64,000 bases of DNA from Gillisia hiemivivida. Lineage in GTDB: Bacteria > Bacteroidota > Bacteroidia > Flavobacteriales > Flavobacteriaceae. A program made the position numbers and the translations under genes. The notes under the pieces are model-generated. The model searched no databases, had not been told where the DNA came from, and saw only the letters and a list, made by a program, of their open reading frames with translations. The DNA lies in the NCBI RefSeq assembly GCF_007997295.1, contig NZ_VORY01000002.1, positions 62,001-126,000 of the forward strand. The letters run 5' to 3'. Position 1 is the stretch's first letter. Each line of letters opens with the position of its first letter. Below are positions 38,459 to 53,970 of this stretch, piece after piece.

Positions 38459-39841
38459 TTAAAACGGATCATTCAGTCCGCTTACTCTTATCAGTTTCTT
38501 ATTTACAAACTCCTGAATCCCCAACTCTGATAATTCACGACCGAAGCCTGAACGCTTTGTTCCACCAAAAGGAAGATCAGCTTGTGTCCAGGTAGGGTGA
38601 TTGATAAAGACCATTCCGGTATCAATTTGATCGGCAACTCTCTTTCCGCGTTCTATATCCTGTGTAAATACAGAACCTCCCAGGCCATAATCAGAATCAT
38701 TAGCCAGATCAATGGCAGCTTGTTCGTCTTTTACCACATAGAAAGAGGCAACCGGGCCAAATAATTCTTCATGATAAGCAGCAATTCCAGGTTTTAAATC
38801 GGTGAGTATGGTAGGTTCCATAAAGGCACCTTCACGATCGGCACGTTTGCCGCCCAATAGTATTTTTGCACCTTCATCAACGGAACGTTTCACTTGATCG
38901 GCTAAATGGACTGCGGCTTCTTCACTACTTAAAGGGCCTAATTCTGTTTCTGCATCCATTGGATCACCCACTTTCATTTTTGATAATTTTTCCTTAAACT
39001 TTTTAATAAATTCATCTGCTATTGCTTCCACTGCGATAAATCGCTTGGAGGCTACACAACATTGACCGTTGTTATTCATCCTGCCTACAACTGCCCACTC
39101 AACCGTTTTTTCCATGTCCGCATCCTCCAATATGATAAACACATCATTACCGCCAAGTTCCAGTACAACCTTTTTTAAATGTTTTCCGGCTTCCTTAGCA
39201 ATACTTGCACCTGCTTCTTCACTTCCTGTTAAGGAAACACCTTTTATCCTTTTATCAGAAACCAATTTTGATGCATGGTTGCCGGTGATGAATAAATTGG
39301 TGTACAATCCTTCTGGAGCTTCTGCTTCTTGGAATAGTTTTTCTATAGCAGCAGCACATTGTGGAACAATGGAGGCATGCTTAAGCAATATTGTATTACC
39401 CACCATAATGTTGGGAGCTGCAAAACGAGCTACTTGATAGTAAGGAAAATTCCAGGGCATCACACCCAACAATACGCCAATGGGACTATTTCGAATTATA
39501 GCCTCTCCATATTCCGGGTCAAGAACTTTATCGGCAAGAAAAGTTTCTCCGTGATCGGCATAGTAATCAAAGATATCTGCACTCAAGTCAATTTCACCTT
39601 CCGCTTGGGCAAGGAGTTTGCCCATTTCTAAGGTGATGGTTTTGGCAAGTTCAGATTTTTTATTTCGCATGAGTGTAGCTACTTTATGTAGCAAATCAGC
39701 CCGTTGCTGGTAGCTCGTTTTTTTCCAGTTAGTAAAAGCCAGTTGAGCTTTCGCCACTTTAGCATCAACCGTTTTATCCGTCATTTCTTCGAATGACTTT
39801 ACTGTCTTATTTGTGTTCGGATTAATTGTGTGAATAGACAT
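38459..39841 (-). CDS. Aldehyde dehydrogenase, succinate-semialdehyde dehydrogenase-like
   Basis: 460 residues. The catalytic Cys is in MNNNGQCCVASKRFI, the general base Glu in VLELGGNDVFIILEDADM, and NAD contacts in VMPWNFPYYQVARF and SLTGSEEAG. Length and blocks fit the succinate-semialdehyde dehydrogenase (GabD/YneI-like) branch. It heads the minus-strand operon ALDH-HMA-SDR-epimerase-SPW/VKOR and has an FNR/CRP-like palindrome about 85 bp upstream. A decayed copy of its 5' end is at 34152. Confidence 0.93.
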   Translation of the reverse strand: MSIHTINPNTNKTVKSFEEMTDKTVDAKVAKAQLAFTNWKKTSYQQRADLLHKVATLMRNKKSELAKTITLEMGKLLAQAEGEIDLSADIFDYYADHGETFLADKVLDPEYGEAIIRNSPIGVLLGVMPWNFPYYQVARFAAPNIMVGNTILLKHASIVPQCAAAIEKLFQEAEAPEGLYTNLFITGNHASKLVSDKRIKGVSLTGSEEAGASIAKEAGKHLKKVVLELGGNDVFIILEDADMEKTVEWAVVGRMNNNGQCCVASKRFIAVEAIADEFIKKFKEKLSKMKVGDPMDAETELGPLSSEEAAVHLADQVKRSVDEGAKILLGGKRADREGAFMEPTILTDLKPGIAAYHEELFGPVASFYVVKDEQAAIDLANDSDYGLGGSVFTQDIERGKRVADQIDTGMVFINHPTWTQADLPFGGTKRSGFGRELSELGIQEFVNKKLIRVSGLNDPF

Positions 39842-39975
39842 ATTGATTCGTATTTAATTAAATAATCAAGAATTTCATTTTGAAATGACTATAAAAATAA
39901 ACCTGTATCTATTCTTAAAATATGATGTAAATCATATAAGTTAATCTTTTTAAGCAAGGATGAATTCAGATGAAT
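39842..39975. repeat. Duplicated upstream region, copy 2 (direct repeat with 34439-34572)
   Basis: Functional copy of the region described at 34439, contiguous with the intact aldehyde dehydrogenase. The gap that follows (39976-40322) contains AT-rich sequence without a recognisable gene. Confidence 0.75.
39922..39935. promoter_or_regulatory. FNR/CRP-type palindrome upstream of the aldehyde dehydrogenase operon
   Basis: ATGAT-GTAA-ATCAT is a perfect 14-bp palindrome close to the FNR/CRP consensus TTGAT-N4-ATCAA, about 85 bp from the start codon. The duplicated copy at 34.5 kb has lost one half. It may make the operon respond to oxygen, nitric oxide or a similar signal. Confidence 0.5.
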
Positions 39976-40322
39976 AATAATCTCGTTTTTGTCGTGTTAG
40001 TTGTTTGTTTCGTGGCCTCTAAAACATTATTTTTTGGTATAACCCTCCTTTCTTTTCCGAAATAGTTGCTCCATCTACTAGCTTCAAGGTATATTACTGT
40101 ATCCTTAACTTAAGAAGTCTAAGTATAACAATAACAATCTTTTAACTTTAGTTTTTATTTCTACACATTAATATTATTGGTAATGAGAGGGAGAATTCCG
40201 TTTGATCTCCACTTTTTATTAATCCTCTTAGATTTTTAATCAATGTTTTAACACCCAAAGGATTTGCAATTAATTCATTGATGTTGAAACCAGATCCGGC
40301 CTTTGCCTGCCTATTTCTTTAA

Positions 40323-40556
40323 CAATTTGACACCGATAACGAGGAACTTGCAAAAGCCCTGCAATGTTTCATTCAGGCTTTCGCAGGGAAAAGGGTAGAT
40401 CCCGAAAATTATGACCTGCTCATGGAAATCTATACGGAAGAGTTCAACTATCTGGAAATAATGACTTCCTTTTTCACAAGGAGTCTTATCTATATTCCTC
40501 TTATTATTAGATTTTTAACTCAATCTATAAAAAACTATCAAAATAGTAAAGCCTGA
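40323..40556 (+). pseudogene. Orphan coding remnant on the plus strand, family unknown
   Basis: The frame is open from a TAA at 40320-40322 to a TGA at 40554-40556 without a start codon. The first 50 codons read like real protein (DTDNEELAKALQCFIQAFAG, then RVDPENYDLLMEIYTEEFNY) and are clearly richer in G+C than the surroundings. After LEIMTSFF it becomes AT-rich and unlike protein. It looks like an internal piece of a gene from another source, probably a mobile element. I do not know the family. Confidence 0.5.
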
Positions 40557-40561
40557 ATCAC

Positions 40562-41689
40562 TTAAAAAGTGAAATCCCCCCAAATCGCAGGATGTTCACT
40601 AGCCGCATGATTTTTTTGATTCATGCTTGGATAGGTAGTCCACTTAGGCTGCTTCTCCGGCCACATACCTTTCCTGTTTAATCCGCAGCTTTTTACTTTG
40701 GAAAAAAGTTCTGGGGACAATAAAAGGTAATCCTTTTGTTTAATATTTACTCCCATTCTGTAAGCGCCAAGACTGTGGTATCCAGCATCCTTTCCTTTAT
40801 CGAAATCTACATTAAAAGATGGGTGTTTGGTAACATCCTTCAGATTAGTTTTCAGCAGTAAGGGCGTAAGAGAATAACAATAGGATACGGCATTTAGAGT
40901 ACCCACTACTGCAATATGCTTTTTGCCTTCAGAATATAATTGATTATAAACCGCGGCAATTCTCTCGGTCTGTTTTTCTCTGGTATCATCGGAAATGTCT
41001 TTATCTTCTGTTTGATGCTGTAAATGTGTTGCCAGAATCCAAATTGTATTTCCTTTAGGGGTACGGATTTCATATTCCATAAAATCTTTGTTGAAAACTA
41101 GTTGTCCTAAGAAATTTAAATCATAACTGTGGCTCCGCACCGATCGGATCTCAAAACCGTTCCGGGTAAGAATTCCTATTTCCTGGCCTCGTTTGTCGTT
41201 TCCCTGCACCACAAAAGTTTGTTCAAAAGACTTACAATGAAACCTAGGGAGAAACTCCTGATTAAATTCTGCTAGGGATGCACGGTCTTCAATTTCCTGA
41301 AGAATCAAAACATCTGGATTCACATCGGCGATTACCCGGGCCTTATTTTCCACAGCTACAGGATCTAATGGATAATTCTGAAGTGCTATCCAGCCATTCC
41401 AGTCGGTTAAATCCCCGGCCTTTAACTCCTTTGAATAATTCATGCCTTTCAAAAAAAGGAATCCGGCTTTTCTCCTTAAAACTGCGTATGGTAGCTGAAA
41501 GCTATTATCCATACCCAGTAAAAAGGATAACTCCCTCAAACGTTCATTTTCCTGATTGGTTTTTTTGAATTTTCCCATCAATTGATCTATCTCCATTAAC
41601 CAATCATTATAACATTTGCTGAAAGGCTTTTCCAAAAAACTTCTGTCTCGATGAAATAAATTCTGAATATTAAATGTGGCTATTTTCAT
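40562..41689 (-). CDS. Endonuclease/exonuclease/phosphatase (EEP) family protein with altered active site
   Basis: 375 residues from the ATG at 41689, one base after the upstream stop; the frame extends 10 codons further into that gene. EEP motifs are KIATFNIQNLFHRD, VLILQEIEDRASLAEF (catalytic Glu), ILATHLQHQ and SEHPAIWGDFTF (catalytic His). The usual GDFN is GTLNAV here, so the conserved Asp is missing, although the Asn remains. It could be a weak or redirected nuclease/phosphatase. It is part of the island's replication-type gene run. Confidence 0.82.
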   Translation of the reverse strand: MKIATFNIQNLFHRDRSFLEKPFSKCYNDWLMEIDQLMGKFKKTNQENERLRELSFLLGMDNSFQLPYAVLRRKAGFLFLKGMNYSKELKAGDLTDWNGWIALQNYPLDPVAVENKARVIADVNPDVLILQEIEDRASLAEFNQEFLPRFHCKSFEQTFVVQGNDKRGQEIGILTRNGFEIRSVRSHSYDLNFLGQLVFNKDFMEYEIRTPKGNTIWILATHLQHQTEDKDISDDTREKQTERIAAVYNQLYSEGKKHIAVVGTLNAVSYCYSLTPLLLKTNLKDVTKHPSFNVDFDKGKDAGYHSLGAYRMGVNIKQKDYLLLSPELFSKVKSCGLNRKGMWPEKQPKWTTYPSMNQKNHAASEHPAIWGDFTF

Positions 41690-41690
41690 A

Positions 41691-42347
41691 TTATTTTCTC
41701 TTGTCTTTAATTTTTTCATCGAAGGCTACCAGGTTAAACATATTTTTCATTCTGCTCCTTACACGTAAGCCATATAAATCTTCAAGTTCATAGGCACTTA
41801 AATTTGTGGTAGCATGAGTTTTTAAATTAGTTTGTAGGAATAATTCATATCTCGAAAGTAGGATTTCACCAATCACATTACAATCCCGACCGTAATGCCT
41901 ACCTATAGGCTCCACCCCCATATCATCAAAACAAAAATTACTACTGTCCCCGTAATCTTCAATAGTTTTGTAACCCAGATGGTTAAATGCAAAAACGATA
42001 TTCCTGCATGGCATTACGACATAATTACGCTGATGTGGAACTAAATACCTTAAAAGTTTCATCATGCTGGTTTTGCCGCATCCCACAGGTCCAGAAAGCA
42101 AAATTCCTTTTTCAGGATCCATTTCAAATTTCTCGCAGTAATTCTGATCCTTTATATAATAATTACATAGCTTGAATAAAACATTTTTATCCTCTTCATA
42201 AATTTTAAAATGTTGGCCGAATAGGATTTTACCTTTTGCTTCAAGAAACACCAGGATCTTTGGGAAGTCATAGACTATTTTAGTTCCGTCAAAATTCCCC
42301 AGGGAATACTCAATTCCATCTTCTATAATACTAGAGGGGTTCGCCAT
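41691..42347 (-). CDS. DnaC-like AAA+ ATPase
   Basis: 218 residues. Walker A GPVGCGKTSMMKLL, Walker B-like SSNFCFDDMGVEP, and a sensor region LKTHATTNLSAYELEDLYG then RVRSRMKNMFNLVAF, the arginine-finger pattern of DnaC/IstB-type helicase loaders. Its start overlaps the end of the preceding gene by 17 bp. This gene set (HTH, Rep-like, ATPase) is common on Bacteroidetes integrative elements, where it is thought to help replication of the excised form. Confidence 0.82.
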   Translation of the reverse strand: MANPSSIIEDGIEYSLGNFDGTKIVYDFPKILVFLEAKGKILFGQHFKIYEEDKNVLFKLCNYYIKDQNYCEKFEMDPEKGILLSGPVGCGKTSMMKLLRYLVPHQRNYVVMPCRNIVFAFNHLGYKTIEDYGDSSNFCFDDMGVEPIGRHYGRDCNVIGEILLSRYELFLQTNLKTHATTNLSAYELEDLYGLRVRSRMKNMFNLVAFDEKIKDKRK

Positions 42348-42978
42348 AGTTCTTGTTTTTACTTGTTTTCAGGTTATCCCGATTTTGAAATGCTGCCGGA
42401 ACCTTTTCAAATTCGTTTGCTTTTAGCATCCAGTTTTCAGCGGTTGCATGCCAGTCAATGATATTAAGTTCATTCCTAAGCTTCCATCCAATAGAGCTGT
42501 AATGATTGAAGAATTTTTTTCCTTCATTAGCAGACCAATTTTTATTTTTAAAATGGTTTAAAACTTCATTTTCATTTTGCGGGTGCTCTCGTTTATTAAA
42601 GTTTATTTTTTGTTTATTATTGTTTATTAAAGGGGTTAATGCTTGTTTACTACTTGTTTCGGACTTGTTTACAGCTTGTTTAGCACTTGTATCAAAAATG
42701 AGCATGTTAACCCTACTGCCCTTATAGGGATTATGGGACGGCAGATATTGAATATATTTTTGTTCATGCAATTTTTTCAAACAGCGATGATAGGTTGGGT
42801 TGGAACCAATTTTTCCCATTCTCATAATTTCTTCTCTGTGGATATAGAAAATATTTTGGAATCGATGAATATTCCAGGTCTGGAATAAAGCCATATACAA
42901 ACTTATGTGAGTGGCATTAAGACTGGAATCCTTTGAAAATTGCTGGAATACAGCATTCAGATGCGTGATATAATTCAT
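42331..42978 (-). CDS. Replication-initiation-like winged-helix protein of a mobile element
   Basis: 215 residues. The N-terminal 90 residues look like a winged helix as in DnaD/RepA-type initiators (HISLYMALFQTWNIHRFQNI, MRMGKIGSNPTYHRCLKKLH, YIQYLPSHNPYKGSRVNML). A low-complexity linker follows, then NEGKKFFNHYSSIGWKLRNE and IIDWHATAENWMLKANEF, a DnaD-like C-terminal piece. No enzymatic motif. I infer a DNA-binding initiator working with the adjoining DnaC-like ATPase. Confidence 0.72.
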   Translation of the reverse strand: MNYITHLNAVFQQFSKDSSLNATHISLYMALFQTWNIHRFQNIFYIHREEIMRMGKIGSNPTYHRCLKKLHEQKYIQYLPSHNPYKGSRVNMLIFDTSAKQAVNKSETSSKQALTPLINNNKQKINFNKREHPQNENEVLNHFKNKNWSANEGKKFFNHYSSIGWKLRNELNIIDWHATAENWMLKANEFEKVPAAFQNRDNLKTSKNKNYGEPL

Positions 42979-42981
42979 AGC

Positions 42982-43257
42982 TCAATCATTTATATTAAGG
43001 TTATTTGCAAGTACTTTATGAATTGCGGCGGAATCGTAATAAATAATCCCTCCTATCTTACTAAATGGCAGTGTGCCATTAACCCTAAAATTATTAAGTG
43101 TTCCGGCGCTAATTTTCAACATTTCCCTGACCTCTGTAGATTTCAGCCATTTTGTTGATACATGTCTCGATTCCTTTTCGAGTAGTTTTTGAATCTCTTC
43201 CAGAAGTTCCACCTTGAAATCCATTAAATCTTCTGTGGTTACAATTGATGCTGGCAT
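42982..43257 (-). CDS. Excisionase-like helix-turn-helix protein
   Basis: 91 residues: an acidic coiled N-terminus (DLMDFKVELLEEIQKLLEKE), then KWLKSTEVREMLKISAGTLN and FRVNGTLPFSKIGGIIYYDS, a MerR/excisionase (HTH_17) domain. Such proteins control excision or the first promoter of integrative elements in Bacteroidetes. It lies 3 bp upstream of the Rep-like gene. An inverted repeat about 20-60 bp upstream may be its binding site. Confidence 0.85.
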   Translation of the reverse strand: MPASIVTTEDLMDFKVELLEEIQKLLEKESRHVSTKWLKSTEVREMLKISAGTLNNFRVNGTLPFSKIGGIIYYDSAAIHKVLANNLNIND

Positions 43258-43275
43258 AATTAAATGATTTTAAAA

Positions 43276-43316
43276 CAATCCCACCGCAGGTTAAAAGGTT
43301 TAAAGCGATGGGATTG
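43276..43316. repeat. Inverted repeat upstream of the excisionase-like gene
   Basis: CAATCCCA (43276-43283) and TGGGATTG (43309-43316), perfect 8-bp arms around a 25-bp centre. It could be an operator or a hairpin. The rest of 43258-43570 has no gene beyond a doubtful 21-codon frame at 43477. Confidence 0.5.
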
Positions 43317-43570
43317 CTCTGGTTTAATTTATTATTACAAAATTGCAGCGGATAAATGATTTAAAATCACCATATCAACGGACTCCGGTGAAAATTTAAC
43401 ATTCCTAATATGAATATAATTGGATATATTTAGAAGAAAGTTGAATAATTTTATAACCCAAAACCCTTCAAAAAACATGAATTTTATTTACAATGATGAA
43501 TACCCAAGATCATCCTGGTTGAGTAGTTTTTTAACATCTTAAATAATAAAATAGCAATTTTTTGAAAGGT

Positions 43571-44395
43571 TCAATAGTCGGAATCCCTCATCTTAGTAAG
43601 TAGATTGATAGATAATTCCTCTAAGAATGGAGTGCGGCTTTTTTTTCTAGATTTTAATTCTGAAAAGGTCCTATATATATCACCTGTATCAAAATGAAAT
43701 GCCTCTTTGAAAAATGCCGCAATATCTTTTAAATCAGTATTTCCATTATTAAAAACCTTTTGTTCATGAAGTGCATATATAAGTTCTGTTAAACCTGCTT
43801 TAGACCCTGTCCACTTAAGTTCATTCTTGCTTTCGGAAGTATCTGAATAATCAGAATCCAACCTCTGTAACTGTTGTTTAAGAAATTTTATGAAAAGTTT
43901 ATTTGCTTTTACTTCCCCCAACAGGAAATCATGGGACGTATTAAAATCAGGATTTCTAAAATGGAGCAAAGCTTCTGTAATCACTATATTGTTAAATTCA
44001 CGAGTAAAATAAAACGCATCTAGATAGCTTTGATTAGTCTCTATATATTCTCCAAATTCTGAATTGATCAAAAAGAATTTGTTCAATTTCTTAAGTTTTG
44101 TATTAATAAATTCTGTCAAAAATTTCTTTCCGCCTTTTGGCGCTTGAACATAAAAGGAATGCAGCTTCGAATAGTAAATTAATTGGCTTAAGGGAAGTTG
44201 TTTCTGTGTTTTAAAAAAAAGGATTTCTGAAGAGATATCCTGGAAACCTCCAGAATTGATCTCTTTTCTATAAGATTCCAATATCATACGACAATAATTA
44301 ATAATTTCTCTGCAGACAACAAGCTTGTTGAGAAAAGTTCGTTCGATTCTCCAAATTTCAGCCTCTATTTCTTCTTTTGTAATCTGAAAGTCCAT
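43571..44395 (-). CDS. rteC: RteC-family regulatory protein
   Basis: 274 residues: FQITKEEIEAEIWRIERTFL at the start, YSKLHSFYVQAPKGGKKFLT in the middle, and a C-terminal ELKWTGSKAGLTELIYALHE block followed by DIAAFFKEAFHFDTGDIYRT, the conserved RteC end. RteC of the tetracycline-inducible Bacteroides conjugative transposons activates excision genes by binding DNA. Its presence supports a mobile element. Two half-conserved copies of the palindromic box used by the peptide locus lie 70-110 bp upstream. Confidence 0.9.
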   Translation of the reverse strand: MDFQITKEEIEAEIWRIERTFLNKLVVCREIINYCRMILESYRKEINSGGFQDISSEILFFKTQKQLPLSQLIYYSKLHSFYVQAPKGGKKFLTEFINTKLKKLNKFFLINSEFGEYIETNQSYLDAFYFTREFNNIVITEALLHFRNPDFNTSHDFLLGEVKANKLFIKFLKQQLQRLDSDYSDTSESKNELKWTGSKAGLTELIYALHEQKVFNNGNTDLKDIAAFFKEAFHFDTGDIYRTFSELKSRKKSRTPFLEELSINLLTKMRDSDY

Positions 44396-44463
44396 TTTAT
44401 TGATATTAAGAATGTCATCTTAAATATCCGTCTATTTCATAAATTCAAAAAATAGATAAACAT

Positions 44464-44502
44464 TCCATTTATAAAGAAGGGGAGTCATTTATAAAGAATA
44501 GG
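44464..44502. promoter_or_regulatory. Two direct copies of the CATTTATAAA box upstream of rteC
   Basis: CATTTATAAAGAA occurs at 44466-44478 and again at 44486-44498, exactly 20 bp (two helical turns) apart. The first 10 bases equal the palindromic box at 46985 and 52263. On the transcribed strand they read TTTATAAATG, about 70-105 bp upstream of the rteC start. Confidence 0.6.
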
Positions 44503-44546
44503 AAAATTAATTATGGAAATCTGAATTTTAACTGGAAAGGATTATT

Positions 44547-46715
44547 TTAATTCTTCATGTTGGATTTGGCAAAACTGAAAATCTTGCTATACAGTCTTAT
44601 CGTTTCATTATAATCACCAAAAGTTTCATGGCCAGAATCATAATCTATATCCATTAAAATGGCTGTATTTGCTGTATTGTATTTCTGAAGCTTGGCGATA
44701 TACTTACCGTTATCCCACAAAGGAATCCGGTCATCATTGTAGCTTGGCATTATAAGAGTAGCTGGATAGTTGGTGTTAGGTTTAATATTTAAATAGGGGT
44801 CCATTTTTATTAGTCCCACATATTCCGCACTGTCCTTTACAGTTCCATATTCTAGATAACTTGTGCTGCTAGCAGTATTGGAAGATTCTAGACCGAAAGG
44901 GTTTAATCGGGGCACTTCGGCAATAAAAGATGAATAAAGATCAGGTCGTTCATTAACTGCCATTGCTGCTGTAACACCTCCCGCGCTGTTTGTATATAAA
45001 GAAATCAAACCTTCTTTAGTAAGATTCATGTCTATTAAAGCTTCCGTACAGGCTATAAGGTCCTTCCATGAATTATATTTAAGATTTTTCATGCCCTGTT
45101 CATGCCACTCCTTTCCTTTCTCCCCTCCACCTCTAACATGCGGAAATGCCAGAATTCCTCCCTGTGCCGCCCAGTCTAAGAAAATAGGAGAGAAAAATGG
45201 ACTCAGGCTTTCACCATAAGCTCCATAAACAAAAATGAAGACTTCATTATCTGAATTCTTCTTAATCCCTTTCTTATAGACCAATGACATAGGAACTTTT
45301 ATTCCGTCATGCGAGGTGACCATTACTTGCTCAGAAATAACATTTGCAAAGTCATGGTATTCACTTTCATTTGAAAGTTTCTCTTTTTGAACATTATCTT
45401 TTTTATCTATTATATAGCGAGTATAATTCGAAGTCCAACCATCCAATCCTACTCCTATGTTATTATGAGAAAGAGATTCTCCAAAAAAAGAAATATAGCC
45501 GGGCGTAAAAGGAAGGTCGAATTGGGTAAGCTGATTCCCAGAACTTATTTTAAATAAGGAAACATTTGCACCGTACAAAGATCTTGTGAAAAATATATGA
45601 TCCCTAGTTAATCCAAAATTCGTGATTGGATCGTCTTTGGTTCCTTCTACTAAGATAATGGGATTATTAAAATCTGGTCTTGAAATATTTATCTTTGCTA
45701 AGCTATTTCCCTTCAATTTTCCTTGGCGGAAAATAAACTCTTCCCCGCGCAGTTCGCCTTGGTCATAGTATATTTTATCATCCTTTTTAAAAAAAGGTTT
45801 CCAATCTGGTTTTCCATTAATAACATCACTCATTTCAGCGATAAAACTGTCATAATAATCATCTGAGCTGGCCACATATCCAATAATAAACTTATCCTTG
45901 CTCGAGCCAATCTTTACTTTAGGATAAAAATCTGCTGAAATTTCTAAATTTGTATCAGATCCAAAAATTGGTGTAACATTTATACTATCCTCCCCTATTT
46001 TATGTAGTACTGAAAACGATTTTTTTTTGAAATCTGGCTTAGATGTGTCAACCTCTGGAAAATATAAATAGATAAAACCAGAGTTATCTGGTAGCCATTC
46101 TATTCCGCCAAAATCAGGATTTATATTTGTTATTTCATCATTTAGGAATTTGCCTGCTTCCAAATCGTATATTTTAATCTTACTGGAAAAATCATTATTT
46201 TCATTAAATCCAATGGCTATTTTTTTTCCATCGAAAGAAGGTTTAAGGTAGCTGATCTCTTTATCCCCAATAGCATAATGGTTAGGATCGAATAATTCTT
46301 TTTCCTCGGCATCAAGTTTCTGTTTATAAAATAATTTTTCCATTCCTAGACTGTCATCTTTTTTCAAGTAGAAATAATTTCCAGTCTCGTTTACAGTAAT
46401 CATACTCACTTTAGATTGAGTAATATTTTGAAGTTGTTTAAATCTTTCCAGGTATTTCTGCATTGATTCAATGGTATCAAAATATGCTTCTGCCAAAGAA
46501 TCCTGTAATTTGAACCACTCTTTAATTTTCTCATTTTCAATATCGTTTAGGTTATAAAAATCATCTGTAACTTTTACGCCAAATTTTATCTCATGTTTAA
46601 TCTCCCCATTAATATTGGGATATATCAACTGGTTAATTTGTTTTTCCTGAGAATAACAAAATATTGGTAACAGGATCAGGTAATTGGTCAGAAAAAGTTT
46701 CTTAAATGTCTTCAT
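44547..46715 (-). CDS. Secreted prolyl-oligopeptidase-like serine peptidase (S9A)
   Basis: 722 residues: signal peptide (MKTFKKLFLTNYLILLPIFC), a beta-propeller from about 40 to 460, and a C-terminal alpha/beta-hydrolase domain. The triad is Ser577 in LYTNSAGG, Asp661/662 in SYNDDRIPLWDNG and His696 in DSGHETFG. The usual GGSNGG around the nucleophile is changed to TNSAGG, the first Gly being lost. Prolyl oligopeptidases cut short peptides after proline. It directly follows the GG-leader peptide gene, whose core contains Gly-Pro and Arg-Pro, so it may process or destroy that peptide in the periplasm; this is inference. Confidence 0.9.
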   Translation of the reverse strand: MKTFKKLFLTNYLILLPIFCYSQEKQINQLIYPNINGEIKHEIKFGVKVTDDFYNLNDIENEKIKEWFKLQDSLAEAYFDTIESMQKYLERFKQLQNITQSKVSMITVNETGNYFYLKKDDSLGMEKLFYKQKLDAEEKELFDPNHYAIGDKEISYLKPSFDGKKIAIGFNENNDFSSKIKIYDLEAGKFLNDEITNINPDFGGIEWLPDNSGFIYLYFPEVDTSKPDFKKKSFSVLHKIGEDSINVTPIFGSDTNLEISADFYPKVKIGSSKDKFIIGYVASSDDYYDSFIAEMSDVINGKPDWKPFFKKDDKIYYDQGELRGEEFIFRQGKLKGNSLAKINISRPDFNNPIILVEGTKDDPITNFGLTRDHIFFTRSLYGANVSLFKISSGNQLTQFDLPFTPGYISFFGESLSHNNIGVGLDGWTSNYTRYIIDKKDNVQKEKLSNESEYHDFANVISEQVMVTSHDGIKVPMSLVYKKGIKKNSDNEVFIFVYGAYGESLSPFFSPIFLDWAAQGGILAFPHVRGGGEKGKEWHEQGMKNLKYNSWKDLIACTEALIDMNLTKEGLISLYTNSAGGVTAAMAVNERPDLYSSFIAEVPRLNPFGLESSNTASSTSYLEYGTVKDSAEYVGLIKMDPYLNIKPNTNYPATLIMPSYNDDRIPLWDNGKYIAKLQKYNTANTAILMDIDYDSGHETFGDYNETIRLYSKIFSFAKSNMKN

Positions 46716-46729
46716 AACTGTAGTTTTAA

Positions 46730-46764
46730 AAATTCCCGAGCCATTAAATTTGACTCGGGAATTT
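46730..46764 (-). terminator. Strong hairpin between the peptide gene and the peptidase gene
   Basis: AAATTCCCGAG (46730-46740) and CTCGGGAATTT (46754-46764), an 11-bp perfect stem with a 13-nt loop, followed on the transcribed strand by TTTTAAAA. It lies 21 nt after the peptide stop and ends only 15 nt before the peptidase start codon. It could act as a partial terminator, giving much more peptide than peptidase message, or protect the peptide mRNA. Confidence 0.75.
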
Positions 46765-46785
46765 AGGAAAATGACACGATTAAAT

Positions 46786-46908
46786 TTATACTCCTGCCTT
46801 GGGTCTTTTAATTTTGTCCCTATCTATAGGTCCATCCTCTCCCCCACCTCGAATTTTATCCAAATTCTTCAGTTCTCTTCCTTTGAAATCTTTTAGTACT
46901 TTTTTCAT
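46786..46908 (-). CDS. Double-glycine-leader peptide precursor (secreted peptide/bacteriocin-like)
   Basis: 40 residues. The leader MKKVLKDFKGRELKNLDKIR is followed by GGG (21-23). With cleavage after Gly22, hydrophobic Ile19, Leu16 and Phe8 fall at -4, -7 and -15, the positions read by C39 peptidases. The ELKNLDKIRGG pattern matches CFB-type GG precursors. The core would be about 18 residues (GEDGPIDRDKIKRPKAGV), charged, near neutral, without Cys or a hydrophobic stretch. It therefore looks like a signalling peptide or unmodified export product rather than a lanthipeptide or pore former. The neighbours are the matching C39 ABC exporter, HlyD adaptor and regulator. Confidence 0.82.
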   Translation of the reverse strand: MKKVLKDFKGRELKNLDKIRGGGEDGPIDRDKIKRPKAGV

Positions 46909-46984
46909 AATTTAAGTATTTGATTAATAAAAATTTACACTCACTAAGTAATCACAAATGAACACAATCAGCAAAAAATTTAAA

Positions 46985-47001
46985 CCGTCATTTATAAATG
47001 G
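46985..47001. promoter_or_regulatory. Palindromic box upstream of the peptide gene
   Basis: CCGTCATTTATAAATGG, with the 12-bp palindrome CATTTATAAATG inside. It overlaps the stop codon of the AraC-type gene and lies about 80 bp upstream of the peptide start. The same 17 bases occur inverted at 52263-52279. A weak -7-like TTCATTTG (46962-46955) sits between box and gene. Confidence 0.65.
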
Positions 47002-48710
47002 CGACTAGTTTCCCTCGATTTTAGTTCATTTAAAAACATTGAAGGAGAAACTCCAGTTTTCTTATAAAAAGCTTTGGAAAAAGATTCTCCTGTCTTAAAT
47101 CCGAAAATTTCTGCCAAGCCCTGATGATTGTATTTTAATAAATCTGGATCCTTGCTAAGGCGATTGATGGCGGCTCTTATCCTCAGATCCTTAAGATAAT
47201 TGGGGAAATTCACTTTTTTGTAATGGTTAATAATGGTTGAAAGGTATGTTGTGTTAGTGCCTAGATCATTGGCTAGATTGGACAAATCAAGATCTTTATT
47301 TAAATATCGGTCTGAATTTTCAAAGGCATTAAGTTTTGATAAGATCTCTTTTCTAATTTCTATTGGTACCGAAGATGGGTGCTCAGTAACTTGCTTCGTT
47401 TCATATATTTGAACTTCACCACCTTCCATTAAAATATTTAATCTTTTTCTTATGTTTCTTGAACGGAGGAAAAAGTAAATACCGATTAAAATAGCAATCC
47501 CTGCAAACACAGCTATTCCAATTATATAAAAAGTTTTTGCTTCTAATTGTTTTTCAGCTTTCAGTTTTTGCCGTTTAAGATCGGGTATATCATATGCTAT
47601 TACGACCTGATTATTCACATTTTCCTGAGCAGATGATAATATGCTGTCATTATGAATCAATTTTTCTATGTATTCAATTTGCTCTTTTTCGTTATCCTCA
47701 AGAACAGAATAGATAATAAGCTGCTGATAAACATCTTTAACTTCTCCAAAAGGATCCCCAGATAAGGAAACAATAGAATCTATTTCTTTAAAATAAGCCA
47801 TTGCAAGCTTATCATTTTTTAAAAATTTTTCGATTTTTCCTAGGTAATAAAGTTTAATTGCTCTCTCGGTACCCTCTAACTTATTAATATATTTCAACAA
47901 GCTATCTTTTGATTTTTTGTAATCTTTCTGATAGTAATTTATCTGGGCATCAACAAGTACGAAATCCCTGAAATCATCAGTTTTTTTGAGAGATTGCGCC
48001 AGTTTTAGACCTTTTCGCACATAAAATTTTGCAGTGTCTATTTGTGATAATCTTAAGTAAGTAAGGGAAAGATTATATAACAAGGTGGAGTAATCTTCAT
48101 AATACGCATCAGGAAAATTTTCATTCTGCTTTAATAAGTTTAGGGACCGTTTATATAGATCGGCGGCGGCATAATGCTGACCATTTATATTTCGAATTGC
48201 TGCGATTGCCAGTGATATTTCCCCTTGGTCTTCTTTGTTTTCTTTTTCTAAGGCCAGATTATACGCTTTTAAAAAATTATCAAGTGCCGGTTGGAATTTT
48301 CCCTGATCATAAAACAAATTTGCTTTAAGGGTGTATCCTAACGTAGGATAACTTTTATGATCACTATTTTCTGTAATTAAAATAATAGAATCTGCATAAG
48401 CTAAAGCGAGCTGCGACTCTTCAATAAAAATTAAATGATAGAATGCCCTTGCAAGTTCTATAGGATTGTTTTCTTTTTTTGACTTGCTTACATGAATTCT
48501 GATTATATTTCGAAGTTTATCAAATTCTGATGCTTCCGCAGCATCTGCTTCTATAATATGCAGTTGCTCATAAGAGGTAGTAATTGAATAGTCAGCAGGT
48601 GACTTAGTGTTTATAGTTTGTGAAAACCCGATCTGAGTTACACAAAATACGAGTGCTAGGCAGATCAGGGCCTGGAATCGAAAATATTGTATTAGAGAAG
48701 AGAAGATCAT
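46992..48710 (-). CDS. Membrane-spanning TPR-AraC transcription regulator
   Basis: 572 residues: signal peptide (FQALICLALVFCVTQIGFSQ), a helical TPR-type region from about 30 to 370 (ALDNFLKAYNLALEKENKED, AADLYKRSLNLLKQNENFPD), one membrane helix (FYIIGIAVFAGIAILIGIYF) and a C-terminal AraC HTH (LSNLANDLGTNTTYLSTIIN, AEIFGFKTGESFSKAFYKKT, GVSPSMFLNEL). The sensor part is thus periplasmic and the DNA-binding part cytoplasmic. It ends the exporter operon and is the best candidate to bind the palindromic boxes and to sense the exported peptide. Confidence 0.87.
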   Translation of the reverse strand: MIFSSLIQYFRFQALICLALVFCVTQIGFSQTINTKSPADYSITTSYEQLHIIEADAAEASEFDKLRNIIRIHVSKSKKENNPIELARAFYHLIFIEESQLALAYADSIILITENSDHKSYPTLGYTLKANLFYDQGKFQPALDNFLKAYNLALEKENKEDQGEISLAIAAIRNINGQHYAAADLYKRSLNLLKQNENFPDAYYEDYSTLLYNLSLTYLRLSQIDTAKFYVRKGLKLAQSLKKTDDFRDFVLVDAQINYYQKDYKKSKDSLLKYINKLEGTERAIKLYYLGKIEKFLKNDKLAMAYFKEIDSIVSLSGDPFGEVKDVYQQLIIYSVLEDNEKEQIEYIEKLIHNDSILSSAQENVNNQVVIAYDIPDLKRQKLKAEKQLEAKTFYIIGIAVFAGIAILIGIYFFLRSRNIRKRLNILMEGGEVQIYETKQVTEHPSSVPIEIRKEILSKLNAFENSDRYLNKDLDLSNLANDLGTNTTYLSTIINHYKKVNFPNYLKDLRIRAAINRLSKDPDLLKYNHQGLAEIFGFKTGESFSKAFYKKTGVSPSMFLNELKSRETSRHL

Positions 48711-48720
48711 TCTTTATCAT

Positions 48721-50004
48721 TTAAAATTCCTGATTTGACCATAAATGCCGAACTTGAAAAAAGACCCGGTCCATAAGCGTTACTTCATTAAGCAAAATTT
48801 CAGCAGTACCTTTCAACTCTTGATGAAATTGCAAATTTTTACCATACGATGTCCTAAGGTTACCAATATCTAGATAAACAATATAAGCAGGATTTTCACC
48901 TATTTTCGGTACTTCAGATATCGATCTTACCTTCGCTCTTACCATGCCCCATTCACGGTATGGATAATTTTCAAGTTTCAAATTTACCTTTTGGCCGGCT
49001 TTAAGCTTACCAGAATTTCGTAATGGTACTTCACATTTCCCGATTAGGTTTTGCTGAATTAAAGGAACCACCGTGAAAATATTTTCGCCTTCGGTAATAT
49101 TCTGATACTCTCCCCAAACTTCGAAAAATGAAAGCCGTCCCTCAATAGGGCTTTTTAGAAGATATTTATCTTCCCATTCTGTAATGGAATTAAGTAAATT
49201 TTGCCTGGATAGCTCTAAATCCATTTCTAATTTATTTTTATTCCTAACAGAACTGTGTATGGTCAGTTTTTGTTTGTTTTGAAATCCGCTATTCTCTAAC
49301 TTCAACTGGTTAAATTCTTGTTTTAATAAATAAAATTGCCGTTGTACACTTAAAAGTTCTTTTTCTGTTGTTTCCAGGTCCAGTTGAGATATCACACCCT
49401 TTTGAAACAACTGCTTATATCTACTATAATTATTTTGAGAAACATCCAGGTTTCTTTCCATAGTAATTAATTCCTCTTTTTTGTTCTGAATTGAATTTTT
49501 CTGATTGAATAATTCTGCTTTGATCTGTTCATCATAAATATTAAAATCCTGAAGAGATTCATCTAATATCAATTGCTGATAATTATTCCAAAAAGTATTA
49601 TAATACAATTGGATATCGCTTCCTAAATGCAATTGTGGTGAAAAAGTTTTTGATAAAACTTCAAGAGAGTAAATTTCATCTAAGTAACTCTTTAGTTGAT
49701 TTTTAAGATAAAGAATATCCTCTCTATTTCCGTTATTTTCTAATTCACCTAAAATATCACCTTTAATAACCGTATCTCCAGCTTTATAATTAATTGCCAA
49801 GATCTTTCCAGTATTTTTTGCCTTAATATGTGCTGGTGGATTATCTGAAGTAACCATGACATTTCCTTCAACCACTTCATTAAATGGGAAGAAGGAAGCA
49901 AAAAGGAGTATAAGAATTAACATTACAAAAATAAAGATAGTACCGTAGCGTAATATCCATCCAGGCTCCTTTTCAAGCTTACTATCTTTATTTGAATTAA
50001 ACAT
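48721..50004 (-). CDS. HlyD-family membrane-fusion protein of the peptide exporter
   Basis: 427 residues: one N-terminal membrane helix (YGTIFIFVMLILILLFASFF), a biotinyl-lipoyl half-motif (HIKAKNTGKILAINYKAGDTVIKGDI shortened here to its GKILAINYKAGDTV core), a long coiled coil (100-270), the second lipoyl half (YLLKSPIEGRLSFFEVWGEY) and a beta-barrel end (GKLKAGQKVNLKLENYPYRE). It bridges the ABC exporter to the periplasm or outer membrane. It lies 15 bp downstream of the exporter gene. A TolC partner is not in the window. Confidence 0.9.
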   Translation of the reverse strand: MFNSNKDSKLEKEPGWILRYGTIFIFVMLILILLFASFFPFNEVVEGNVMVTSDNPPAHIKAKNTGKILAINYKAGDTVIKGDILGELENNGNREDILYLKNQLKSYLDEIYSLEVLSKTFSPQLHLGSDIQLYYNTFWNNYQQLILDESLQDFNIYDEQIKAELFNQKNSIQNKKEELITMERNLDVSQNNYSRYKQLFQKGVISQLDLETTEKELLSVQRQFYLLKQEFNQLKLENSGFQNKQKLTIHSSVRNKNKLEMDLELSRQNLLNSITEWEDKYLLKSPIEGRLSFFEVWGEYQNITEGENIFTVVPLIQQNLIGKCEVPLRNSGKLKAGQKVNLKLENYPYREWGMVRAKVRSISEVPKIGENPAYIVYLDIGNLRTSYGKNLQFHQELKGTAEILLNEVTLMDRVFFQVRHLWSNQEF

Positions 50005-50019
50005 TTTATAGTATTTATT

Positions 50020-52194
50020 TTAAAGTTGATTCTGTATTAATTGGTAATAAAAACCTTGCCGTGATAGCAGTTCCTGATGATTACCTTCTTCGACTACCTT
50101 ACCTTTATGCATGACTAGAATTTGATCAGCATTTTTTACCGTGGACAATCGATGAGCTATTATGACTACAGTTTTGTTTTTATAAAACTGATTTAAATTT
50201 TCAGTAATTACTTTTTCATTTTCCGCATCCAGAGAACTAGTTGCTTCATCGAAGAACAGATAATCAGGATTCTTATAAATTGCTCTTGCAATAAGTAATC
50301 TTTGCTTTTCTCCTCCGCTTAATAGCTGGCCTTGCTCCCCAATTTTAGTCTGATATTTAAATGGCAGTTCATCAATGAAATTCGACAAATTTGCCAGTTT
50401 CACTGCTTTTTCAATTTCGTGTTGGTTCACAGGCTCTTGGGATTTAGATTCTGTAATGTTTCTTTCTATGGTATCATTGAAAAGTATTCCATCTTGTAAT
50501 ACCGCGCCACAAACCTGTCTCCATTTGTCTGCTTTAATATTCTCAAGATTTTGATCTCCAATGCTAATTTTTCCTTCAATGGGGTTATAAATTTTTAGTA
50601 ATAATTTCAGAAGTGTTGTTTTACCCGAACCACTGGCACCGACAATGGCAGTAACTTTACCTTGAGCTATGGTTATAGAAATATTATGAAGTATAGATCT
50701 TGAACTTATGGGATTGAATTTAAAACTTACGTTTTTAAACACTATGTCACCAGGATCCATATAAAATCCGCTATAAGCATTTTTAACTTCAGGTTCTTGA
50801 TTATGAATTTCGGATAACCTATCTAAAGAAAGTCTGGCTCTTTGATAACCTACAAGGAAATCCATGCTGTTTGAAATGGGAACATATAAACTTCCAACGA
50901 TAAATTGAATCGCAAGCATAGTACCTAAGCTAATTTCTCCTGTTATTACAGCCTTTGCAGACCAGAATATTATAAGGATACTCGTAAATTCATTAATAAA
51001 TTTACCTCCATTGATTTGTGCCTGATCTACTCTCAAAATACTTGACTGCAGCCCAAAAAGCTGGGTTTGGTTGATTCTCCATTCAGATTTTCTTCTTTCC
51101 TCAGAATTATTTAGTTTGATTTCCAAAACACTTAATATTATTTGAAGGAATAAGGACTGGTCTTTTCGATTTAAATCGAATAGCTGATGATCCAGCACCT
51201 CCTTTTTCTTCATAAATAACAATGACCATCCCATAAACAAAATGGTTCCGGTAATAAAAATCATTAAAATGGAAGTATTAAAAATTCCCAGGATAATAGC
51301 AAAAATGAAAATTGTGAGTAGATCAAATAGAATTGTAAGTGATCTTCCACTTAAAAATTCCTCTATTCTTTGATGATCATAAATACGCTGCATAAAATCC
51401 CCGGTAGTTTTAGAATCGAAAAAGGTTATGGGAAGTTTTAGAATCTTATCAAGGTAATCGGAAATCATTGCGATTGTAACCTTAGTTCCAATATGTAATA
51501 ATATCCAATCCCTTATAATTCCTGAAGCAGATCTTACAAGAAATAAAAAAAGTTGCGCTATAACGATGAGGGATATAAAATCAATATTCTCGTAATTAAT
51601 ACCGTAATCAACGATACTTTGAGTTAGAAAAGGTAGGATTAACTGAACAACAGAAGCGATGAACAATCCTAAAAAAACCTGATAGATATTTTTCTTATAC
51701 GGTTTCAGATAATCGATTAGAAATCCTAAACCCTGTGCTTTGTTTTCTTCTAAATCTAGAGCGCCAAAATTTTGATTAGGTTCGGCCAAGAGCAATACGC
51801 CTTCATTATTTTTTTCAACCCAGCTATTCCGAAATTCAGTATGAGAGTATTTCATTCGTCCTAGAGCAGGATCTGATACAAAAACATTCCTTTTATCTGT
51901 TCTATAAACTACCAGAAAATGATTGTTTGACCAATGAGCGATTGCAGGAAGCGGGACTTCATGAAGAAGCTCCTGAACAGTTGCCTTAATCCCTATGGAA
52001 TCCATCCCTATTCTTTTTAAGGCATCTGAAAGACCCGCCAAGGACACACCTCCTTTTTGAAGACAAGATATTTCTCTGAGATAATTCAAATTATAATTTC
52101 CACCATAAAAATCTGTAATTATCTTTAGGCAGGTTGGACCGCAGTCCATCTGATCGAGCTGGCGATAAACGGGAAAATTATTAGCTCCAAACAT
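50020..52194 (-). CDS. C39-peptidase-containing ABC transporter (PCAT) for a GG-leader peptide
   Basis: 724 residues in three parts. Residues 1-130 are a C39 peptidase with complete triad: Cys18 in QLDQMDCGPTCLKI, His92 in NHFLVVY and Asp108 in VSDPALG. Residues 160-450 hold six membrane helices. The C-terminal ATPase has Walker A GASGSGKTTLLKLL, signature LLSGGEKQRLLIARA, Walker B YLFFDEATSSLD and H-loop IAHRLSTV. The peptidase cuts the leader after Gly-Gly while the transporter exports the core. It heads the operon PCAT-HlyD-AraC and is matched by the GG precursor at 46786. Confidence 0.95.
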   Translation of the reverse strand: MFGANNFPVYRQLDQMDCGPTCLKIITDFYGGNYNLNYLREISCLQKGGVSLAGLSDALKRIGMDSIGIKATVQELLHEVPLPAIAHWSNNHFLVVYRTDKRNVFVSDPALGRMKYSHTEFRNSWVEKNNEGVLLLAEPNQNFGALDLEENKAQGLGFLIDYLKPYKKNIYQVFLGLFIASVVQLILPFLTQSIVDYGINYENIDFISLIVIAQLFLFLVRSASGIIRDWILLHIGTKVTIAMISDYLDKILKLPITFFDSKTTGDFMQRIYDHQRIEEFLSGRSLTILFDLLTIFIFAIILGIFNTSILMIFITGTILFMGWSLLFMKKKEVLDHQLFDLNRKDQSLFLQIILSVLEIKLNNSEERRKSEWRINQTQLFGLQSSILRVDQAQINGGKFINEFTSILIIFWSAKAVITGEISLGTMLAIQFIVGSLYVPISNSMDFLVGYQRARLSLDRLSEIHNQEPEVKNAYSGFYMDPGDIVFKNVSFKFNPISSRSILHNISITIAQGKVTAIVGASGSGKTTLLKLLLKIYNPIEGKISIGDQNLENIKADKWRQVCGAVLQDGILFNDTIERNITESKSQEPVNQHEIEKAVKLANLSNFIDELPFKYQTKIGEQGQLLSGGEKQRLLIARAIYKNPDYLFFDEATSSLDAENEKVITENLNQFYKNKTVVIIAHRLSTVKNADQILVMHKGKVVEEGNHQELLSRQGFYYQLIQNQL

Positions 52195-52262
52195 ATTATA
52201 AAATTGAAAGTCAGAACACTAAATTAATTTAGAAAAATGATATCTGTAGACGAACTAACTAT

Positions 52263-52279
52263 CCATTTATAAATGACGG
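52263..52279. promoter_or_regulatory. Palindromic box upstream of the exporter operon
   Basis: CCATTTATAAATGACGG, the exact reverse complement of the box at 46985-47001, about 70 bp upstream of the exporter start codon. The gap 52195-52497 holds this site and otherwise AT-rich sequence with no gene. Confidence 0.65.
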
Positions 52280-52497
52280 TAAATTCAACTAAAATTTATG
52301 TATCTATCTATTGGGGAAAATAGATGTTATTTTGGGGGAGAAAGGAAATATACTTAAAGTATGTAGCTTTGTAAATAATTTGATAACTATCAAATTTATA
52401 AAAAAAGTGAATACTATATCATAAGTTTAAAAAAGAATAATAGTATTCTTTAAAAAGAATCTATATCGTGCTAAAAACCTCTAAGAATAAAGAGCTT

Positions 52498-53754
52498 TTA
52501 CCCCACAATTAGATCATTAGCATCATCTAAAACAGAATTATCAAAACTTTTAAGGTAAATTTCAGTGGTCTTCAAGGAATGGTGGCCTAAGCCCTCACTG
52601 ATTATTTCAGTCGAAACACCCATGTTCTTAGCAATAGTAGCCCATGAATGCCGGATGTAATATGAAGTGATTTTTTCTTCAATTCCTGCATCTTCAGCAA
52701 TTTTTTTAAGCAATTTATTCACCAATCTTCTATCAGATTTGTATTTTGTAAAATTGTTTACTGAACCATCATAACCTATTGGAAAAATAAAATCATCTTT
52801 ATCTTTACCTTTAATATAATAACTGAGTATTTCAGCAAATTCGGTAGTTATCTTAACCGATAACGGATCGCCTGTTTTACTTCGACCGTAAAATATCCTC
52901 TTATTAGTAATATTTTTCACTCTCAATTTTGCTAAATCTATAAGATTCATCCCTCTACCATTAAACATACTCAGAAGATAGTTTTTTGTATGCCAAAGAT
53001 TAGAGTTTTCTTTATATCGCAAATTTCTTATAGCAATAATCTTTTCTTTTGATAAAGCTTTCTTTTTAGTCCTACCAGTAGTTGGAATTTTATAATTAAA
53101 AAATGGGCTTTTTATTGGTATAAACCTATCTTCCTTGATGGCACTATTATAAATTGCACGAGCAGCTCGAATGTAGGAACTTATTCCATTGTTGGAGTTT
53201 CCTCTTGAAACATGTTCCATTTCAAATTCTTTAAGAAAGGAAACCGTTATCTGATAAAGCTTTACCGGTTTACCATTGTTGAATTGTGTGAAAGCATTAA
53301 TGGAATCTTGATACCATTTCGCTGTAGCCGGCTTATTGGCTTTCAATTTTCGATTTATCAGAATTTGTCCCCATTCATCCAATCTAATTTCATTAGATAA
53401 ATCTTTTTTGATTTTAGAATCAAGTTGCTCATCCCAGGACATTTTAATATTCTCTACCAATGTATCAACGGAAATAATATTTATAGTCTCTCCAAGTTTG
53501 TTAATAGTAGATTTTGCTATATGTAATTTGTTATAAATTGAGGTGTTGATTACATCACAATCCAAATCTTTATTTGCAGCAACCGATTTTTTAAGTGCCA
53601 TACTTTTATCATCCCATCCTGCTCTCGAAGTACTATAAGAAAGTCGAATCATCCTAGGTTTCTTGTGAAAAATTCTAATTACAATTGGAAATAGGCCTTC
53701 ATTCGTACTTTTGGACTTAGATCGGGTGTCGAGAATCAGTCTTGCTTTTGCCAT
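52498..53754 (-). CDS. int: Site-specific tyrosine recombinase (integrase) of Bacteroidetes type
   Basis: 418 residues from the ATG at 53754 (MAKARLILDTRSKSKS, the usual start of this family); the frame is open 24 codons further up. An Arm-DNA-binding N-terminal domain and SAM-like domain (ISVSFLKEFEMEHV-like region ITVSFLKEFEMEHVSR) precede the catalytic domain. Catalytic residues are Arg in FNGRGMNLIDLAKL, RHSW in YYIRHSWATIAKNMG, His in GLGHHSLKTTE and Tyr in TTEIYLKSF. It directs integration of the island at the tRNA sequence 160 bp away. Confidence 0.95.
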   Translation of the reverse strand: MAKARLILDTRSKSKSTNEGLFPIVIRIFHKKPRMIRLSYSTSRAGWDDKSMALKKSVAANKDLDCDVINTSIYNKLHIAKSTINKLGETINIISVDTLVENIKMSWDEQLDSKIKKDLSNEIRLDEWGQILINRKLKANKPATAKWYQDSINAFTQFNNGKPVKLYQITVSFLKEFEMEHVSRGNSNNGISSYIRAARAIYNSAIKEDRFIPIKSPFFNYKIPTTGRTKKKALSKEKIIAIRNLRYKENSNLWHTKNYLLSMFNGRGMNLIDLAKLRVKNITNKRIFYGRSKTGDPLSVKITTEFAEILSYYIKGKDKDDFIFPIGYDGSVNNFTKYKSDRRLVNKLLKKIAEDAGIEEKITSYYIRHSWATIAKNMGVSTEIISEGLGHHSLKTTEIYLKSFDNSVLDDANDLIVG

Positions 53755-53914
53755 TTCAAACTCTTTTAATAATATAAATTTAGCTAAAATTACGCACACT
53801 TTACGCACACATATTCCTGAACACAAATGTGATTAAACGAGTACAAAATTTACTAAAATATTGATAACCAATATTTTAGATTATATATTTTGCTTAAGTG
53901 TTTGAAAATTCACC

Positions 53915-53958
53915 GCCTTCTAAGCAGGCGGTCCCAGGTTCGAATCCTGGCGCGATCA
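53915..53958 (+). repeat. 3' fragment of a tRNA gene (tRNA-Arg(TCT)-like), probable attachment site
   Basis: From the second half of the anticodon stem on, a tRNA can be read: loop CTTCTAA (anticodon TCT), GCAGG, variable CGGTC, T-arm CCAGGTTCGAATCCTGG, acceptor CGCGATC and discriminator A. There is no D-arm or 5' acceptor half upstream, and the upstream strand of the anticodon stem does not pair. The intact gene must be elsewhere, at the other end of the element. Such a fragment next to an integrase is the standard mark of an att site. Confidence 0.8.
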
Positions 53959-53970
53959 CTTTGTAATTAA

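Follow-up and report, generated by a model that had tools for sequence, protein, structure and literature searches.

What does a short peptide do when it is encoded beside its own exporter, a regulator and a peptidase? The question is raised by a locus of Gillisia hiemivivida (contig NZ_VORY01000002.1, positions 62,001 to 126,000; these 64,000 nucleotides are called the window below), in which a gene with a double-glycine (GG) leader lies between the genes of a TPR-AraC regulator and of an S9 prolyl-oligopeptidase-family enzyme (Table 1). The original prediction, made from this DNA alone, took the product for a secreted signal read by the regulator and trimmed or destroyed by the peptidase. 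We compared the locus with related ones, and the comparison suggests that these three genes, together with those of the C39 exporter and its HlyD adaptor, form a secreted-peptide autoinduction circuit that is borne by an integrative conjugative element (ICE) and controls rteC, and so the transfer of the element. On the sequence evidence we lean towards this reading, with modest confidence.

The peptide gene and its module

Translation of the 40-codon frame gave MKKVLKDFKGRELKNLDKIRGGGEDGPIDRDKIKRPKAGV, in which the leader ends in LKNLDKIRGG and is followed by the core GEDGPIDRDKIKRPKAGV, devoid of Cys. We scanned genome contigs with the exporter and kept 80 exporter loci, 19 of which had a homologue of the peptide between TPR-AraC and S9; the predicted association of leader and core with C39, HlyD and AraC-TPR genes therefore recurs in relatives. 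In two further loci (L011 and L021), the contig ended within the module. The peptide-bearing hosts were Gillisia, Christiangramia/Gramella, Salegentibacter, Arenibacter, Cerina and one Flavobacteriaceae metagenome-assembled genome (L065). This last contains a tandem pair of peptide genes (L065:7663-7943), with cores a few residues apart.

In the peptide alignment (22 rows), M1, G21, G22, I28 and D31 were invariant, and K3, I19, D29 and K32 were at least 90% conserved. Cores of this family have the motif ID-x-DK, with I, V or L after it and, usually, GP before it. This motif was kept in three distant loci (L103, L104 and L106) despite clearly different leaders, and its counterpart in L105 is IRRDKL; the C-termini of the cores differ in length and sequence between members. 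Over all pairs of 16 sequences, the proportions of nonsynonymous (pN) and synonymous (pS) differences were 0.18 and 0.75 for the leader and 0.16 and 0.87 for nine core codons. Because synonymous sites are saturated, no dN/dS ratio is stated for the peptide. The cores of L007 and L017 differed by seven synonymous and no nonsynonymous changes. Instead of the Ka/Ks near 1 or the broken frame named beforehand as grounds for doubt, the relatives thus showed pN far below pS. This and the conservation in the alignment rule out a chance open reading frame: the peptide gene is genuine, with a GG leader and a core conserved over several Flavobacteriaceae genera.

The window peptide matched no NCBIfam and no Pfam family at E≤0.1, and the description of it as uncatalogued holds for these two libraries. 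Its spread is patchy, since a peptide profile (E≤0.01) found it in 9 of 397 sampled genomes of the family and in 7 of 16 genomes of the genus. One of the nine family-level matches, in G025 (L095), is not a true member, as neither TPR-AraC nor S9 lies beside it. A phylum-wide search, which scored at most 18 candidates per genome and may have missed distant members, returned the window genome and weak matches (E 6e-4 to 4e-3) in 8 of 395 genomes. Seven of these were GG-leader frames with other cores, two of them containing DPID, while the eighth (L146) looks like chance. Small GG-leader-like frames with unrelated cores were also seen near related exporters (L022:21955-22125 and L043:9790-9903).

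The proteins encoded around the peptide were as first described. Pfam recognized the C39 and ABC domains of the exporter, in which not only the named triad C18, H92 and D108 but also Q12 was present, and the domains of the HlyD adaptor, of the regulator (TPR_12 only just above its cut-off) and of the S9 enzyme (PF02897 and PF00326, propeller and hydrolase). The S9 triad was the same in every one of 20 aligned rows. The gene order ABC, HlyD, TPR-AraC, peptide, S9, rteC was found in all 19 peptide-bearing loci of the exporter scan. In the distant loci L103, L104 and L106, the order was TPR-AraC, peptide, S9, ABC, HlyD, again with rteC alongside. The retention of the five genes through this rearrangement argues that they work together. 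Between the peptide and S9 genes lies a hairpin resembling a terminator or attenuator, so that the peptide gene may be transcribed on a short message of its own. In seven chosen loci, the z-score of this hairpin was at most -2.4 in five, -1.9 in L109 and -0.8 in L108, and the sequences differed; a terminator scan of the window failed to list it.

The element and rteC

Sequence features place most of the window inside an ICE of 94.8 kb that is inserted within a tRNA-Arg gene. Two exact 45-bp repeats are 94,813 bp apart, the second copy (C23:21102-21146) being inside an intact tRNA-Arg(TCT) gene, and homologues of ssb and radC are located between them. The relaxase MobB (NF041495, E 7e-118) and TraG (TIGR03783) scored above curated cut-offs; the matches to MobC, TraK, TraM and TraN were significant and below theirs. 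The corresponding empty site, with an intact tRNA gene a few hundred bases from the right-flank gene, was found in G401, G404 and G403 with ARAGORN (loci L151, L152 and L153) and in G400 by sequence (L160), while in G000 and G409 the site holds only a 3' fragment of the tRNA gene.

The association of the peptide with such elements was not confined to the window. We queried TraG and MobB in 13 peptide-bearing genomes, 11 of them at least 90% complete, and in 9 of these 11 both were on the contig of the peptide, at most 85 kb away. The exceptions were G225, in which the tra and mob genes are on other contigs and the matching locus (L019) stops 3.7 kb beyond the peptide, and G144, in which neither was on the contig of the peptide.

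From rteC to the right end of the ICE, the genes are S9, peptide, TPR-AraC, HlyD, ABC and integrase. RteC is a homologue of the CTnDOT regulator of the same name. In CTnDOT, RteB activates rteC, RteC controls the excision and transfer genes, and the two-component system is made only upon exposure to tetracycline, according to PMC1976400. Upstream of rteC genes that lack the module, the slot was occupied in 5 of 20 loci read by eye (L115, L118, L123, L130 and L133) by a multi-TM protein whose C-terminus is LuxR-like.

The putative operator and the regulator

The 12-mer CATTTATAAATG was found, with at most one mismatch, upstream of the peptide gene in 24 of the 25 peptide-bearing loci scanned, the exception being L105; the wider operator consensus is about CGYCATTTATAAATGRCG. 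On the window contig (111 kb), the 12-mer occurs exactly twice, before the peptide gene and before the exporter gene. With up to three mismatches, the 18-mer gave 2 matches in the window, compared with 0.12 expected. The peptide site is the only perfect 18-mer of the 3.7-Mb genome; allowing two mismatches added the exporter site and two positions on a different contig, and a reversed-pattern control matched one place as well.

We trained a matrix on 18 peptide-upstream sites only and looked for the best site of at least 9 bits within 200 bp upstream of other genes. Such a site preceded ABC in 14 of 18 loci (L003 being too short there for the test) and rteC in 15 of 19. None was found upstream of HlyD, AraC or S9 (0/19 each), of three neighbouring genes (0/18, 0/18 and 0/16) or in random 200-bp segments (0/658, maximum 8.0 bits). 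The peptide-upstream site of L065 scored 17.1 bits. The palindrome is not general to the exporter family, since it was absent upstream of ABC in all 58 regions from loci that lack a homologue of the peptide. The loci share descent, and these counts are not independent.

The sites at rteC are often tandem, 20 to 21 bp apart. Both sites reached 9 bits in L008, L010, L013, L019 and L108, whereas one or both were weaker in L003, L004, L016 and the window. At the peptide, exporter and rteC promoters alike, the palindrome centre was 42 to 44 nt from a T-rich -7-like box wherever the box was recognized, except at the exporter promoter of L109 (73 nt). The pattern for this box was of our own choosing and failed to recognize it at 5 of 13 promoters of the peptide gene, 3 of 12 of the exporter and 2 of 9 of rteC. 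When 39 promoters in which a site had been detected were compared without any pattern, T47 and T48 were the most conserved of columns 30 to 61 downstream. The same spacing at three types of promoter suggests one activator for all three. Bacteroidota promoters are unlike the sigma-70 consensus, and a scan for the latter was uninformative (47 matches versus 39.8 in shuffles).

To which protein does the operator belong? Of the 41 rows given by a search for rteC, we examined the 30 for which a locus was available: 9 had module genes next to rteC, and 21 had no module gene within flanks of about 1.5 kb. A site of at least 9 bits lay within 200 bp upstream of rteC in 5 of the 9 and in 0 of the 21, and within 400 bp in 5 of the 9 and 1 of the 21; 12 of the 21 module-free genes are in genomes that have the peptide elsewhere. 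By these sequence counts, the operator accompanies the TPR-AraC module, and not rteC or the genome at large.

The regulator begins with a signal-like segment, and its AlphaFold2 model (19 sequences; mean pLDDT 82.5, pTM 0.53) shows a TPR superhelix (residues 47-361), then a long hydrophobic helix (375-428) and, at the C-terminus, an AraC-type helix-turn-helix (HTH; 450-571). Since the N-terminus is signal-like and the hydrophobic helix follows the TPR part, the latter is most simply taken as periplasmic. With VIA-align, the model matched RapI of ICEBs1 (Z 20.9, rmsd 4.6, 304 residues), NprR (Z 20.4, rmsd 4.7, 301 residues), phi3T Rap (Z 20.2, rmsd 5.7, 306 residues) and Rap of pLS20 with Phr* (Z 19.1, rmsd 7.9, 294 residues). 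The predicted TPR fold would therefore be able to hold peptides. A plasmid search with the regulator returned 7 records, none above 80% coverage, in which mostly the HTH part was matched.

Table 1. Coordinates of the module, its putative operators and the element in the window
Feature	Position	Strand	Remarks
GG-leader peptide gene	46786..46908	-	40 codons; leader, residues 1-22; core, GEDGPIDRDKIKRPKAGV
S9 prolyl-oligopeptidase-family enzyme	44547..46715	-	signal-like N-terminus; triad S577/D661/H696
TPR-AraC membrane regulator	46992..48710	-	Pfam TPR_12/HTH_18, AlphaFold2 model and fold matches
HlyD-family periplasmic adaptor	48721..50004	-	Pfam HlyD
C39-peptidase ABC exporter	50020..52194	-	Pfam C39 and ABC domains
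Hairpin (14 bp), terminator/attenuator-like	46730..46764	-	between peptide and S9; z -5.7
Putative operator palindrome upstream of peptide	46986..47003	.	CGTCATTTATAAATGGCG; overlaps end of TPR-AraC gene
Putative operator palindrome upstream of exporter operon	52261..52278	.	ATCCATTTATAAATGACG
Operator-like site upstream of rteC, one of tandem pair	44466..44477	.	matrix score 11.0; weak
Operator-like site upstream of rteC, other of tandem pair	44486..44497	.	matrix score 6.3; weak; 20 bp off
RteC, homologue of CTnDOT excision/transfer regulator	43571..44395	-	Pfam RteC PF09357, E 4e-63
HTH_17 protein, 91 aa, after rteC	42982..43257	-	candidate excisionase
Two rteC-linked conserved genes	41691..42978	-	42331-42978; 41691-42347, DnaC-like ATPase
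rteC-linked conserved gene	40562..41719	-	no Pfam family at E≤0.001
Tyrosine recombinase (integrase)	52498..53826	-	adjoins right attachment repeat
Right attachment repeat	53915..53959	+	3' part of tRNA-Arg(TCT)
ICE portion in window	1..53959	.	remainder C23:21102-62000, with MobB, MobC and Tra genes

The ICE also carries what is likely copper/heavy-metal cargo (window 27622-33244 and C23:27323-32005), comprising a CusA/CzcA-type RND pump and adaptor, a multicopper oxidase, DUF302 and DUF3347 proteins and haem-binding proteins. Three neighbouring ICE genes (C23:37892-43477), the first partly similar to BREX PglX methyltransferases, are possibly a defence or modification island. Beyond the ICE, window 54292-58188 contains, consecutively, genes for a QEGLA/MATCAP protein, a glutathione-synthetase-like ATP-grasp protein and an AstE/AspA-family protein.

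The proposed circuit, its alternatives and its relatives

In the circuit that we propose, the C39 exporter would cleave the precursor after GG and, with the HlyD adaptor, release a core of about 18 residues. The core would bind the TPR domain in the periplasm, and the regulator, sensing its build-up in this way, would bind the palindrome and activate its own exporter/regulator operon, the peptide gene and rteC. As its counterpart does in CTnDOT, RteC would next turn on the excision and transfer of the element, with the peptide module taking the role of RteA/RteB at rteC and the HTH_17 protein as candidate excisionase, and the secreted S9 enzyme would trim or destroy the peptide. The element would in this manner tune its transfer to the number of neighbouring cells that carry it. 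We infer the binding of peptide to receptor, the substrate of S9 and the positive sign of the response. A signal nevertheless fits better than a bacteriocin, because the genes stay together, the core is conserved across genera and one type of operator is common to three sites. The idea of a secreted signal in the original prediction was to that extent partly supported, its reading by the regulator and its cleavage by the peptidase staying conditional, while the location in an ICE, the shared operator and rteC as apparent output had been missed.

Several observations weigh against the autoinduction circuit. The core is not hypervariable, unlike many pheromones. The best fold match of the regulator model was eukaryotic LGN (Z 25.3, rmsd 5.7, 326 residues), which indicates that TPR superhelices are generic. 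The S9 gene is broken in two loci that may come from one genome, L002 and L097, and the AraC gene apparently in L018. Among five further module loci (L103, L104, L106, L108 and L109), a site of at least 9 bits preceded ABC in one and rteC in two; four of the nine module-bearing rteC loci (L124, L131, L135 and L136) had no such site, and the module-free rteC of L121 had a non-palindromic 9.7-bit match 243 bp upstream. The two rteC sites of the window rank only 4 and 14 in the 111 kb, and as off-target matches reach 11.7 bits in the window ICE (within an unrelated gene at 36405) and 13.2 bits in related loci, where others are scattered, they are unconvincing by score alone; the tandem layout and conservation favour them. 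Finally, the divergent module of L105 (G144), with the core GPIRRDKLKRPKHGF, lacked the palindrome, any rteC within the 19 kb that were read and any TraG or MobB match on its contig. It may use a different operator and output.

If the sign were opposite, the peptide would inhibit TPR-AraC and transfer would be off when neighbours carry the ICE, a form of self-recognition resembling that of PhrI, which acts in this way in ICEBs1 according to PMC6540685. The layout of the operator is compatible with either sign. Nevertheless, positive feedback is the simpler fit, since the regulator is encoded in the exporter operon and, at the promoters of peptide and exporter, the operator precedes the -7-like box; we regard inhibition as unlikely. 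The question of sign is separate from that of S9, which might be a maturase that makes the active signal by a second cleavage or by macrocyclization, a possibility that is compatible with autoinduction and that we entertain tentatively. In either gene arrangement, S9 is the neighbour of the peptide gene. The AlphaFold2 model of the enzyme (20 sequences, pLDDT 80.7) aligned equally well with the hydrolytic prolyl oligopeptidase 2bkl (Z 36.0, rmsd 4.1, 652 residues) and with the macrocyclases PCY1 (5o3u; Z 36.9, rmsd 3.7, 658 residues) and OphP (7zb1; Z 36.5). Most members of this fold, however, are hydrolases, and the variable C-termini of the cores and the broken S9 genes also speak against maturation.

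A secreted S9 could serve as immunity, degrading the peptide to protect the producer, if the locus were microcin-like antibacterial cargo in which rteC is merely co-regulated. Class II microcins are indeed exported by this plan, with GG leader, C39 exporter and HlyD adaptor. But the core is polar, about 18 residues long and without Cys, no modifying enzyme was found among the scanned neighbours, and the conserved gene order shows no separate immunity gene, short frames not having been tested one by one. A toxin would need neither the conservation of the core across genera nor an operator common with rteC, and we consider this explanation quite improbable. That RteC rather than TPR-AraC binds the palindrome, the module being part of the RteC regulon, would agree with the presence of the palindrome at rteC itself. 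We rejected this as very improbable in view of the module-free rteC genes, none of which has a site of at least 9 bits within 200 bp and only one within 400 bp.

In Gram-positive bacteria, plasmids and ICEs are known whose conjugation is governed by peptide pheromones. The nearest concept to the autoinduction circuit is RapI-PhrI of ICEBs1, which, like Rap-Phr of pLS20, belongs to the RRNPP systems: there also a mobile element encodes a peptide and a TPR receptor controlling conjugation, and the TPR domain of our regulator is about the size of Rap or NprR. Parts and compartment differ. The RRNPP systems are from Bacillota, with a propeptide without GG leader that leaves by general export and is imported again to act on a cytoplasmic receptor, whereas here the peptide has a GG leader and its own C39 exporter, and the TPR domain, going by sequence and model, is apparently periplasmic and linked to an AraC HTH by way of a hydrophobic helix. 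CTnDOT-type ICEs of Bacteroidota, which carry resistance genes, share with ours homologous RteC and TraG-type proteins, the Tra/Mob types, integration at a specific site flanked by direct repeats and, as it appears, control of rteC by a sensor system. In CTnDOT this system is the two-component RteA/RteB; here a one-component TPR-AraC regulator, a peptide, an exporter and S9 lie beside rteC.

Other systems share the export arrangement. Streptococcal pheromones of the ComC/ComAB type also combine a GG peptide, processing and export by a C39 ABC protein and an accessory protein, but they are Gram-positive, act on a two-component receptor and have neither S9 nor a tie to an ICE regulator. Class II microcins of the MccV type differ in the features weighed above: here the core is short and polar, no immunity gene was seen and the operator is common with rteC. 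GG-leader natural-product precursors of Bacteroidota (L140, L144 and L147) resemble the peptide in leader style and differ in their cores. The text of PMC10352776 describes TPR genes in two Bacteroidales clusters for ribosomally synthesized and post-translationally modified peptides and mentions pheromone binding for other bacteria; it contains neither "prolyl" nor "HlyD" (0 occurrences each). Our searches of open-access full texts (preprints and subscription papers excluded) gave, among the entries listed, no description of such a Bacteroidota system, and our claim of novelty rests on these searches and on general knowledge.

Taken broadly, the locus may be a Gram-negative, Bacteroidota counterpart of Gram-positive pheromone control, in which a periplasmic TPR-AraC regulator reads a C39-exported ICE peptide and drives rteC, excision and transfer are coupled to carrier density, and S9 matures or quenches the signal, all with non-RRNPP parts except for the TPR fold; we place this wider claim barely on the favourable side of even. 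The regulatory slot beside rteC may be modular, with alternative sensor modules on different elements. If the circuit is as proposed, signal sequence, receptor, operator and output gene would be in hand for a Bacteroidota ICE, and how it decides to transfer could be tested by means of a reporter and a single synthetic 18-mer.

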